From Candidatus Puniceispirillum marinum IMCC1322 (GTDB taxonomy: Bacteria > Pseudomonadota > Alphaproteobacteria > Puniceispirillales > Puniceispirillaceae), in assembly GCF_000024465.1 (NCBI RefSeq), contig NC_014010.1, forward strand, positions 1,550,001 through 1,614,000: a DNA stretch of 64,000 bases, given 5' to 3'. This document shows, in pieces, positions 35,377 through 40,142 of this stretch. The notes beneath the pieces were generated by a model. That model saw only the letters and a program-made list of their open reading frames with translations. It searched no databases and was not told the origin of the DNA. Numbering within the stretch: position 1 is the first letter of the stretch; each line of letters begins with the position of its first letter. A program made the translations under genes and the position numbers.

Positions 35377-35928
35377 ATGGACTTCGAAAAGTTTAATAAA
35401 TTTGGGTCGCTTTTGCTGAAAGATGAGTTTGTCCTGAGCTATAGCGGTTACGCTTCCGAAGATGTTCTCCATTCAATGGGGGAAACATTGCGCCAGAGAC
35501 TTGCTGATCACACCGAAGATAAAGGCAAAATCAAGCATGTCTTCTCGGTCTTTGTTGAACTTATGCAGAATTTGATCCGTTATGGTGCCGAAGGACCGCA
35601 TCCGACACCAAAGACAGGGAGCCGGCAAGCCTTTGGTTTGATCATGGTGATACAAAATGGTCCCTCAATTGAAGTCATGTCGGGAAATTATGTTTCAAAA
35701 GATGAAGCAAATGACTTGGTAAATAGAGTTAATGAACTCAATGATAAGTCCGCAGATCAGTTACGGGCACTTTACCGGGAAAAATTACGACAACCGCCGC
35801 ATGAAGGAAGTAAAGGTGCCTCAATAGGGCTGGTTGAAGTGGCCCGCCGTGCATCGGCGCCACTATCATGTACGGTTGAGGACACAAATCAGGGCTATTC
35901 ATTTTTTATGATTAAGGCGCGCATCTAG
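35377..35928 (+). CDS. siaB: SiaB-like protein kinase (DUF6272)
   Basis: 183 residues. SiaB is a small GHKL-fold kinase that phosphorylates the regulator SiaC in Pseudomonas aeruginosa. Here an N-box-like FSVFVELMQNLIRYGAEG sits near residues 56-73, and a G-box-like GSKGASIGLVEVARRA near 150-165, as expected for an ATP-binding GHKL domain without a histidine phosphorylation site. It is followed 10 bp later by siaC and by a cyclase gene overlapping siaC, with the phosphatase-like siaA convergent downstream. This context makes the family call firm; kinase activity is inferred. Confidence 0.85.
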   Translation: MDFEKFNKFGSLLLKDEFVLSYSGYASEDVLHSMGETLRQRLADHTEDKGKIKHVFSVFVELMQNLIRYGAEGPHPTPKTGSRQAFGLIMVIQNGPSIEVMSGNYVSKDEANDLVNRVNELNDKSADQLRALYREKLRQPPHEGSKGASIGLVEVARRASAPLSCTVEDTNQGYSFFMIKARI

Positions 35929-35938
35929 AGGATATTGG

Positions 35939-36328
35939 ATGACCAATCTAAATATTGTCGCTACATCACGAACACCAAAGATTACATTTAAAACAAAAGC
36001 TGGCACGTTGCTTATTGAGGGAGAGTCATATCCTGAAGATGTGACAGGTTTTTATGACCCTGTTTTTGCCGCCGTCAACGACTATCTGAAATCGCCTGAC
36101 GCCAAGCTGGATGTAGATATAAAGCTTATTTATTTTAATTCATCCTCGGCGCGCGCGCTTATGGAACTTCTGGATATGATGGATGCTGCCGGCGCCGAAG
36201 GTGCCAGGGTATCTATCAGATGGTATTGCGATGGTGATGATGATATTACCCGCGAATTTGCCGAGGATATTTCTGCCGATATTGAGCATATCAGCATTGA
36301 TATTTTTGAGCTGACGCGCGATGACTAA
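35939..36328 (+). CDS. siaC: SiaC-like phosphoswitch protein (DUF1987)
   Basis: 129 residues. In Pseudomonas, unphosphorylated SiaC binds and activates the diguanylate cyclase SiaD, and SiaB phosphorylates SiaC at Thr68. The conserved segment is KLIYFNSSSARALMELLDMM; the residue at position 68, the expected phosphosite, is Ser instead of Thr (N67-S68-S69-S70). GAGGA precedes the ATG. The last 8 nt overlap the cyclase start (ATGACTAA), so the two proteins are probably made in a fixed ratio. Partner inferred: the adjacent class III cyclase. Confidence 0.86.
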   Translation: MTNLNIVATSRTPKITFKTKAGTLLIEGESYPEDVTGFYDPVFAAVNDYLKSPDAKLDVDIKLIYFNSSSARALMELLDMMDAAGAEGARVSIRWYCDGDDDITREFAEDISADIEHISIDIFELTRDD

Positions 36329-37328
36329 ATCGCAATCCGATCTATCAAAACACATACACAATATATTAGAAACAGACACACCGGCACCCTTATTACGTGC
36401 CGGATTACAAGACCTGCTCAAAGCCTATGAACGCCAGACACGGCAAATGAACAGGCTGGTTACACTTTCTGATGCCAATGCCGATAAATTGCAATTGACC
36501 AACCGCAAGCTTGAGCTTTTATCGCAGAACCTGTCTCGTTTTGTGGCACAGACCGTTGTCGATAGTCTGGCGGCGGGTAACGACGATACATTAAAAAAGA
36601 TAAAGCGGAGTGAATTGACACTGTTTTTCTCCGATATCGTAGGATTTACGGGTATGACCGATGATTTAGCGCCTGAGCAGATGGCGTGGCTTATGAATGA
36701 TTATTTCACCGAAATGACCCATATATGTAACCGCTGGGGCGGCACACTAGATCAGTTCATTGGTGATGCTATTGTGATTTTCTTTGGCAATCCGTTCAGT
36801 AACGGGCTGGATGCTGATGCCCGCGCGGCCGTTCATATGGCGCTGGAGATGCAGCAACGGCTGTCTGTTTTGCGCGAAAAATGGAAAGCTGCAGGCATTC
36901 AGATACCGATGCATGTTCGTATGGGCATAAGTTCGGGGTTTTGCACCGTGGGTAATTTTGGTTCTAGCGAACGTCTGCATTATACAGCAATCGGACGCGT
37001 CGTGAACGAGGCAGCACGGACACAGGCTTTATGCCCGGTGGACAAGGTGCTTGTCACCGAAAATACATATAATCTGGTTCGTGATCAAATCAGTTGCAAA
37101 GCATGTGACATCGCAGCATCGGTTGGGCCGCATCAAAAGGTCAATTTGTTCGAACCACTCGAGACACAGGCAGAAACACTGACGAATAGCCCACCAGATG
37201 AACGGCTGATCGTGGGCAATTCTGACGGTTTTAAATTGTATTTTGATAGCAACAAGGTGACCGAAACAGGCAAGGTAAAAATCCTGCTGGAAGATGCGTT
37301 AAAATCCCTTAGTGAAAAACAAACATAG
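36321..37328 (+). CDS. Class III nucleotidyl (adenylate/guanylate) cyclase
   Basis: 335 residues, soluble. An N-terminal helical part (about 1-95, likely coiled coil, QMNRLVTLSDANADKLQLTN) precedes a class III cyclase domain (about 98-235). Metal-binding Asp105 lies in LFFSDIVGFT and Asp149 in FIGDAIVIFF. Transition-state Asn229 and Arg233 lie in RVVNEAAR. The purine-specifying Lys of adenylate cyclases is Gln145 here, while the Thr partner (Thr222 in HYTAIG) is kept, so ATP versus GTP use is open. It occupies the place held by the diguanylate cyclase SiaD in Pseudomonas. The start overlaps siaC by 8 nt. Confidence 0.88.
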   Translation: MTKSQSDLSKHIHNILETDTPAPLLRAGLQDLLKAYERQTRQMNRLVTLSDANADKLQLTNRKLELLSQNLSRFVAQTVVDSLAAGNDDTLKKIKRSELTLFFSDIVGFTGMTDDLAPEQMAWLMNDYFTEMTHICNRWGGTLDQFIGDAIVIFFGNPFSNGLDADARAAVHMALEMQQRLSVLREKWKAAGIQIPMHVRMGISSGFCTVGNFGSSERLHYTAIGRVVNEAARTQALCPVDKVLVTENTYNLVRDQISCKACDIAASVGPHQKVNLFEPLETQAETLTNSPPDERLIVGNSDGFKLYFDSNKVTETGKVKILLEDALKSLSEKQT

Positions 37329-37445
37329 ATAAAACAGGTGACCTGTAAAATTAATAGGCCGTATAAAGTAATACAGCACGCAAAAGACGCCACCACAAGA
37401 CAAGGTTCTGCCGTGGTTGCCTGAACGTTAAATTGGAATGCCATA

Positions 37446-37748
37446 ATGGAACCAAAAATAGCACGGATTTACCAGCGCACTTTTAAAACACAGGATGATG
37501 CCCAAGCATTTATCCATGCTACCAGAATCGTTGAAGAGCGCGTTTCTGCGGTTGATGCCAGATATCGCGTTTATCAATTACGCGAAAACCCGCTGATTCT
37601 GTTCGAAATCTGGGAATATCCAGATCATGATGCGATGGAATGGGTACAGACATCAATGGAAGGTGCTGGTGCTGTGCCACGCGCCTTTAACCCAGACACG
37701 GTCAGCTATACAGCCGATATCGCCGTAGCATATGATTTTGAAGAATAG
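37446..37748 (+). CDS. ABM-like dimeric alpha/beta-barrel protein, unknown role
   Basis: 100 residues. The alternation of strands and helices and the LFEIWEYPDHDAMEWVQTSME segment resemble small antibiotic-biosynthesis-monooxygenase-fold proteins, but the match is not strong enough to name a function. It lies between the cyclase and the convergent siaA-like gene (1 bp between stops), inside the sia-type cluster, so it may belong to it or be an unrelated neighbour. The 117-bp gap upstream argues for its own promoter. Confidence 0.6.
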   Translation: MEPKIARIYQRTFKTQDDAQAFIHATRIVEERVSAVDARYRVYQLRENPLILFEIWEYPDHDAMEWVQTSMEGAGAVPRAFNPDTVSYTADIAVAYDFEE

Positions 37749-37749
37749 G

Positions 37750-39621
37750 TTAGTCTTTTTGCGACGGCTTGAACGCTAGGACAGTCACGTCGTCACGTCG
37801 TTCTTCGGAACCTTGCCAGTCTTTCAGAGTTTTTGCCAGAAACCGTGCCAGTTTACTAGGGTCATTTCCCTCTACACGATCCAGCGCCTCGGCAAACCGC
37901 CGACTTCCAAAGACCCGCTTTTCAGCCGACCCTACCTGCGTGATGAGACCATCAGTCGCGATCACAAAACTGTTTGTATCGATGTTGATATCATAGGTTT
38001 TAAAATCTGGCAGCTTGGCATTCACATTGTAGCCAAGCATGGCCTTGTCAGCACGCAATCTTGTGGCTGCCCCGGTTTCAGGCACCAGATAAAGATCCAT
38101 TGATGCGCCACAAAATTCTAGCCTGTCATGATCTTTGCTAAACCTTAGTACTGCACAATCGAGCCCATCTTTGCCGGCAGACAAATCCGATGAAAGACCA
38201 AGTGCCGCGCAAACACCATCATGTAGTTTATACATCAGTTCCGGCCCCGAAAGGGCACTTGACGTTGACACGGCTATCTGGTCAAGAACCGACGTGACAA
38301 TCAGTGTCATGAACGCCCCTGGCACACCATGGCCAGTACAATCAAAAAATACCAGATAGTCCTGATTGCCAATCTTTTTGAGCCAGTAGAAGTCACCCCC
38401 CACCAGATCCTTGGGTTGCCAAATTGCAATTGTTTTCCCCAAAATCGCTGTCATATACTTTCGATCGCAAAGTAAGGCTCGCTGGATATTACTTGCATAT
38501 TGAAGCGAATCATTGATGTCGCGACTGGTTTCTTCCAACAAACGTGCCCGCAATTTCTGAACCGTTATGTCCGAACCTGTGCCCCGATAACCCGTAAACA
38601 CATCTGCCTCGTCAAAAACGGGTTTGCCATTAATCGACACCCATTTGACATTGCCGTCGCCATCAACAAGTTGATATTCTAGATTGCGAAATTCTTCATG
38701 CCGCTTCATCAGCTTTGTATGCTGACGCAGCATTTCATTTTCGGCTTCCCCGGCGTTAAGATTGGTATGCGATTTCCCAATCACATCCTCATCACGTAAT
38801 GCGAAAAGGTCAAAAAACCGTTCTGAAATAAATGTAAAATTCAGATTTTCATCCATTTCATAGAACCAGTCACCTGAAATTTCGGCAAGGTCTTTGAAGC
38901 GCTGTTCACTCTTGACCAGCGAGTTCTGATAACGGTTTAAGCGGCGCATATAATAGCGCGATGCCGCCGCCAGCTTATTATAGACATCGACCATGGCGCC
39001 CAGCTCATCATTACGAACCCGCTTGGCGAGCACCGGATTTTCCGGCGAGGCAACGATCATCGCCGATTTCAGCAAATCAAGTGGGCGCAATACTACATTG
39101 CGGAATGACAAGACTAGCGCGCAAAAGATCAACAGGATGATGATAAAAATCGTAGCCGCAAATAAAGCCGTTTCCAGATACAGATCACGATTTGAAATAC
39201 TTTCATCGATCCGTAAAGTCAGCACACGCCCGGGCTGGGTAAAACTTTGGTCAAATGTCATGGTCTCACCAACCATGGGAAGCTTTGCACACCCAATCGC
39301 TGGCCACGACAAGACCAGCGCACCATCATCCAAAATATCGACACATTGAACATAATGAAACGCCGCAAACAAACGTAAAATACGCCGCGCCTCGGCGCGC
39401 TGATCATTCGCAAGCGTTCCTTCCAGAAGCGGTGCGCTTATATGCACCGTATTGGCAAGTTCTACCGCCATCCGGTTTGAGGTATTACTCGACCGATACT
39501 GATAGAAACCGGCAACAGCAACCAGACTCACCAAGGTAGCCGAAGCAAGACACAAAAGAAAAAATCGCATAAATAGGCTGTTCCGCGAAAATATTCTTGC
39601 CCATCCTGCCTTGGACAACAT
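37750..39621 (-). CDS. siaA: SiaA-like membrane sensor phosphatase (periplasmic domain, HAMP, PAS, PP2C/SpoIIE)
   Basis: 623 residues. TM1 about 18-41, a periplasmic sensor domain to about 147, TM2 about 150-172, HAMP about 173-222, PAS about 240-355 (ISGDWFYEMDENLNFTFIS), and a C-terminal PP2C/SpoIIE phosphatase. Metal-binding Asp residues appear in DLVGGDFYW (D410) and FFDCTGHGVPGAFM (D427). In Pseudomonas, SiaA dephosphorylates SiaC and so turns on the cyclase. The PAS domain is an addition to the basic SiaA layout as I recall it. Start: ATG at 39621, 4 nt past the upstream stop; a GTG at 39666 is possible. The signal it senses is unknown. Confidence 0.85.
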   Translation of the reverse strand: MLSKAGWARIFSRNSLFMRFFLLCLASATLVSLVAVAGFYQYRSSNTSNRMAVELANTVHISAPLLEGTLANDQRAEARRILRLFAAFHYVQCVDILDDGALVLSWPAIGCAKLPMVGETMTFDQSFTQPGRVLTLRIDESISNRDLYLETALFAATIFIIILLIFCALVLSFRNVVLRPLDLLKSAMIVASPENPVLAKRVRNDELGAMVDVYNKLAAASRYYMRRLNRYQNSLVKSEQRFKDLAEISGDWFYEMDENLNFTFISERFFDLFALRDEDVIGKSHTNLNAGEAENEMLRQHTKLMKRHEEFRNLEYQLVDGDGNVKWVSINGKPVFDEADVFTGYRGTGSDITVQKLRARLLEETSRDINDSLQYASNIQRALLCDRKYMTAILGKTIAIWQPKDLVGGDFYWLKKIGNQDYLVFFDCTGHGVPGAFMTLIVTSVLDQIAVSTSSALSGPELMYKLHDGVCAALGLSSDLSAGKDGLDCAVLRFSKDHDRLEFCGASMDLYLVPETGAATRLRADKAMLGYNVNAKLPDFKTYDINIDTNSFVIATDGLITQVGSAEKRVFGSRRFAEALDRVEGNDPSKLARFLAKTLKDWQGSEERRDDVTVLAFKPSQKD

Positions 39622-39625
39622 GGTG

Positions 39626-40015
39626 TCAAGAGCCTGAATTGGCGATGGCTTTGCGGAGCAGGTCACGCTGGTTCATCATCACATCGACGACCATCCATCC
39701 GTTTGTGCCGTTTCGCACCAGAAAATCAGCTTCATATTTCTTACCTGCTGCATCGAACATTTCAATACAGAGAAAATAATCCGTCCCGTAGGGTATAATG
39801 CGCGGATGGATTGCTCCTGGAAACACCGCCACACGAACACCCGTGTCACGCTCAATCACCCCAAAGGCGCCCGCCTCGTCTGCGGCCTCTTCTAAAAATG
39901 TAATCATCGTTGTCTGTAATTGCGCTTTGGTAACAGCGTCCAGGTTTGACGCGCTTACATGATGCGGCATAATCACCAGCCACAGGCTGGCCATGAATAT
40001 ATACACAGCTTTCAT
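39626..40015 (-). CDS. Secreted protein of unknown function upstream of siaA
   Basis: 129 residues. A signal peptide (MKAVYIFMASLWLVIMPHHVSA) is followed by a mature domain of about 107 residues, with one helix-rich segment (VTKAQLQTTMITFLEEAADEAGAF) and strands ending in TNGWMVVDVMMNQRDLLRKAI. One Cys is present (YFLCIEMFDA). GGAG lies 6 nt before the ATG at 40015. The siaA-like ATG is 4 nt past its stop, so it is made together with the sensor. It could be a periplasmic ligand-binding partner or the sensed protein; that is only a position-based idea. Confidence 0.7.
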   Translation of the reverse strand: MKAVYIFMASLWLVIMPHHVSASNLDAVTKAQLQTTMITFLEEAADEAGAFGVIERDTGVRVAVFPGAIHPRIIPYGTDYFLCIEMFDAAGKKYEADFLVRNGTNGWMVVDVMMNQRDLLRKAIANSGS

Positions 40016-40142
40016 TCGACACTCCATTTCAGTGTCGAATTACTTTAATGGCGTTAGTGTATTGGCCAAAGCACGATATTGGCCTTTACCAAAAAACATG
40101 CCGCACTCTTGGAAAATGGAAAATAAAGTCTATATTTAAATT

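Follow-up and report, generated by a model that had tools for sequence, protein, structure and literature searches.

The window analysed here is a 64,000-nucleotide stretch (contig NC_014010.1, positions 1,550,001 to 1,614,000) of the single-contig, 2,753,527-base genome of Candidatus Puniceispirillum marinum IMCC1322, a member of the SAR116 clade (PMC3368413). siaB (35377..35928, forward strand) encodes an RsbW-like protein kinase of the SiaB family (DUF6272; PF19788, E 9.8e-36). siaC (35939..36328, forward) encodes a regulatory phosphoprotein of the SiaC/DUF1987 family (PF09345, E 2.4e-38). The next gene (36321..37328, forward) encodes a class III nucleotidyl cyclase (PF00211, E 2.5e-22), and its first 8 nucleotides, ATGACTAA at 36321-36328, are also the last of siaC. 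A gene for a 100-amino-acid protein follows (37446..37748, forward), and on the reverse strand, convergent to the preceding genes, lies a siaA-type phosphatase gene (37750..39621) whose product carries PAS and PP2C (SpoIIE) domains. Four nucleotides upstream of siaA lies a gene (39626..40027, reverse) whose small product has a signal-peptide-like N-terminus. The grouping of siaB, siaC, a siaA-type phosphatase and a class III cyclase, and the 8-nucleotide overlap, had been proposed in the first-pass annotation and are borne out by the gene calls and family matches; the convergent orientation of siaA and the 100-amino-acid gene were absent from it.

A SiaB-family kinase, a SiaC-family phosphoprotein and a SiaA-type PP2C phosphatase are encoded together, as in a SiaABC switch. 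The three proteins score under the Pseudomonas equivalog cut-offs and above the available family cut-offs (SiaB subfamily, Pfam SiaC, SpoIIE). SiaB matches the SiaB-family kinase model NF038262 with 162 bits against a cut-off of 85, and the Glu and Asn of its ATP-binding box are retained (VELMQNLIRY). The SiaA-type protein has two predicted membrane segments, as judged by eye, and its gene has an alternative GTG start at 39666. The predicted phosphosite of SiaC is Ser68 (YFNSSS), between the conserved Asn67 and position 69 and at the place of T68 in Pseudomonas SiaC. Position 68 is Ser in 70 of 79 surveyed SiaC proteins and Thr in the other 9; the window protein therefore has the more frequent residue and Pseudomonas SiaC the rarer one.

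In P. aeruginosa, the active SiaD dimer is promoted by SiaC, which attaches to the helical stalk of the enzyme unless it is phosphorylated at T68 (PMC8457831). A stalk profile was built from the pre-GGDEF regions of 23 proteins selected solely by their adjacency to siaC. It matched amino acids 14-71 of the window cyclase with an E value of 2e-8, and none of 5000 shuffled versions of this N-terminus reached the real score. All matches better than 0.46 were outputs in Sia clusters. A second profile, built from non-cyclase outputs, also matched the window cyclase (4.8e-9), while the 24 SAR116 cyclases from outside Sia loci that served as controls gave no match. The shuffles and the control cyclases rule out generic coiled-coil similarity as the explanation. 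By its similarity to the stalks of siaC-adjacent GGDEF proteins, the N-terminus is of the SiaD type.

The stalk lies at 36387..36545 on the forward strand (genome 1586387-1586545), inside a helix spanning amino acids 23-71. In the AlphaFold2 model of the cyclase (mean pLDDT 86.7), this is a single helix running into the cyclase fold, with the docking motif NRLVTLSDANADKL (amino acids 44-57) at its middle. The SiaC-contact residues of SiaD are R80, S82, D83, R84 and Q86 (PMC8457831). The window cyclase retains S82 and D83 (its S50 and D51), and R80, R84 and Q86 are changed to T48, A52 and A54. The place of R80 is occupied by Lys in other SAR116 stalk copies, and that of Q86 by Gln or Glu in some of them. 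Together, the profiles and the model strongly support the assignment of the cyclase N-terminus as a Sia stalk, the type of helix that SiaC binds in SiaD, and thereby a candidate physical link between switch and enzyme. This predicted SiaD-type stalk on a cyclase is what is new here.

SiaC exceeded the PF09345 cut-off in 13 of the 61 family genomes, in 12 of 385 sampled from the class and in 66 of 398 sampled from the phylum, and 80 neighbourhoods were read in addition to the window. A stalk-bearing output was present in 57 of 79 siaC loci: 24 GGDEF proteins, 16 HD-GYP proteins, 12 class III cyclases and 5 histidine kinases. In most cases, no more than about 50 bases separate its start from the siaC stop. 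In a reverse test, 80 named loci were chosen by the cyclase catalytic domain and yielded 87 cyclases. Eight carried the stalk, and all eight lay in loci with siaA, siaB and siaC, seven within 1.2 kb of siaC and one at 3.7 kb; none of the 79 stalkless cyclases in these loci was near siaC. The association of stalk with siaC proximity gave a Fisher p of 1.4e-9 with the 3.7-kb case counted against it, a value that overstates independence, as related genomes are included. Chance adjacency of siaC and cyclase is ruled out by the survey and this catalytic-domain-first test.

Several SAR116 genera have the pairing of Sia switch and cyclase, as do other Proteobacteria and Campylobacterota; stalked cyclases are found, among others, in Limnohabitans, Curvibacter, a Magnetococcales, a Porticoccaceae, the K189A clade and Sulfurovum. 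The adjacency is therefore not peculiar to one strain, the outcome that the first-pass annotation had named as telling against it. Among the 61 SAR116 genomes, the stalk was found in eight, once per genome, and all eight have SiaC. The window cyclase is the sole stalk protein of its genome. No stalk protein was detected in four SiaC-positive genomes of the 61, in which SiaC has either a different target or a target in missing sequence. The SAR116 siaC loci that have no stalk-bearing output are L060, L062, L064, L066 and L067; in L064, siaB and siaC are fused in one reading frame.

The catalytic domain is that of a class III nucleotidyl cyclase. The metal-binding Asp105 and Asp149 and the transition-state residues Asn229 and Arg233 are invariant among 32 relatives. 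Family searches of the window genome for GGDEF, EAL, HD_5 (HD-GYP) and PilZ returned no match, and so a c-di-GMP output, here or elsewhere in the genome, is very unlikely. The genome contains two class III cyclases and four proteins with a cNMP-binding domain. Two short ones (genome 2274250 and 1709325) show by eye a phosphate-binding motif of the GEIFGE...RS type and are thus candidate receptors.

Taken together, these data are consistent with a Sia switch that gates a class III cyclase, in which unphosphorylated SiaC docks on the stalk and turns synthesis on; this reading is given a probability of about three in four. The gene content, the shared stalk, its co-occurrence with Sia clusters, the kept catalytic residues and the failure to find c-di-GMP machinery support it. 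Beyond these observations, we infer the physical binding of SiaC to the cyclase, its activation by dephosphorylated SiaC and the nature of the product. SiaB would phosphorylate SiaC on Ser68, and SiaA, a membrane PP2C protein, would strip this phosphate upon sensing its signal. Unphosphorylated SiaC would then dock on the long N-terminal stalk helix, as on SiaD, and stabilize a parallel stalk dimer that switches the cyclase on. Class III cyclases require a dimer. Docking is expected to activate rather than silence because their catalytic sites form at the dimer interface. The first-pass annotation had proposed a class III cyclase as the output of the module. This part is strongly supported by the stalk, the survey and the lack of matches to c-di-GMP domains; its account of the output swap was too narrow, since HD-GYP proteins and histidine kinases carry the stalk as well.

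The sign of control could be reversed, with stalk-bound SiaC silencing the cyclase until SiaB phosphorylates SiaC and so releases the enzyme. The shared stalk points to SiaC binding and is silent on its effect, and the catalytic domain differs from GGDEF. This reversal is unlikely, given that the dimer is as necessary to class III cyclases as to SiaD and that docking stabilizes the active dimer in the single solved case (PMC8457831). An arrangement in which the cyclase merely shares the operon and is regulated independently of SiaC is more improbable still. The partly eroded stalk contacts of the window cyclase would agree with it, but the stalk and Sia clusters co-occur almost perfectly across distant taxa and different catalytic domains.

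In place of the Lys-Thr pair that selects adenine in adenylate cyclases, the window cyclase has Gln145 with Thr222. Each of the seven SAR116-type Sia cyclases has Gln where the substrate Lys would be; Lys is present in 12 of the 13 remaining Sia cyclases and in all 56 non-Sia cyclases that could be read. This replacement raises a lesser though appreciable chance that the wiring is as proposed and the product is cGMP or mixed. Guanylate cyclases, however, usually have Glu at the first position of this substrate-selecting pair, and the Thr is retained. Because Thr222 is kept, ATP is judged the likelier substrate, and cAMP a likelier product than cGMP.

The closest known system is SiaABCD of P. 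aeruginosa (SiaC-SiaD complex, PDB 7E6G). Both have SiaA, SiaB and SiaC homologues, and in both siaC is directly followed by the gene of an enzyme with an N-terminal stalk and a core SD motif. The window output, however, is a PF00211 class III cyclase and not a GGDEF diguanylate cyclase like SiaD proper. The window cyclase has one copy of the stalk motif and SiaD two, and SiaC carries Ser68 in place of Thr68. siaA is convergent and its product has an extra PAS domain, and the genome has no detected c-di-GMP machinery. The nearest solved catalytic domain is that of the class III adenylate cyclase CyaB of P. aeruginosa (PDB 3R5G, E 7e-52); the window cyclase differs from the CyaB type in its Sia stalk N-terminus and in the change of the substrate Lys to Gln. 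In HsbA-HsbD and BgrV-BgrR (cited in PMC8457831), a phosphorylatable STAS-type protein likewise controls a messenger-making enzyme, but these are STAS proteins proper with diguanylate cyclase outputs, and the window system uses SiaC/DUF1987.

The seven SAR116-type Sia cyclases group together in the tree of catalytic domains (SH-aLRT 99). The cyclase of a further SAR116 locus, L065, clusters with gammaproteobacterial Sia cyclases, and the remaining Sia cyclases lie elsewhere. The AU test rejected a single clade containing every Sia cyclase (p 1.1e-5; 18 rows, with long rows excluded), so the pairing was either assembled several times or arose early and was then often lost. SiaC is probably a general adaptor with a portable stalk as its target, driving at least four kinds of enzymes, its output swapped repeatedly and even in a genome that has no c-di-GMP system.

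Control by SiaC is known for one enzyme, SiaD, and SiaC-family proteins have been suggested in general to modulate neighbouring proteins (PMC8457831). SiaC with an adenylate cyclase, HD-GYP or histidine kinase output is unreported in the open-licence papers searched, a weak absence. The shared stalk turns the general suggestion into a specific, testable rule, namely that the stalk marks the SiaC target. It would imply that abundant ocean bacteria lacking c-di-GMP enzymes have a cAMP or cGMP output, and the stalk may serve as a ready docking handle by which cyclases or histidine kinases could be brought under phosphoswitch control.

The stalked HD-GYP proteins are GAF and HD-GYP proteins of about 680 amino acids encoded directly after siaC (L101, L108, L113 and 13 more loci); in other bacteria, the degradation of c-di-GMP may thus also be under the control of a Sia switch. 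Stalked histidine kinases occur in L074, L075, L084, L085 and L129, one of them with receiver domains, and would link a Ser/Thr phosphoswitch to two-component signaling. At L086, a hemerythrin-domain protein is encoded after siaC (1416-2021), and a stalk match was not found at this locus.

The 100-amino-acid protein has no Pfam match and shows, by eye only, a likeness to the ABM-type monooxygenase fold. Within this survey it is conserved only in SAR116 Sia loci. In nine SAR116 relatives (L056-L064), its gene stands between siaA and the cyclase gene (or siaC); these include L060 and L062, where the order siaB, siaC, 100-amino-acid gene, siaA is kept and the cyclase is absent. The protein may be a further, accessory part of the Sia switch. 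Besides the window, four Sia loci (L058, L061, L064 and L082) have a gene for the small signal-like protein next to siaA, and this protein may be a partner of the SiaA sensor domain in the envelope.
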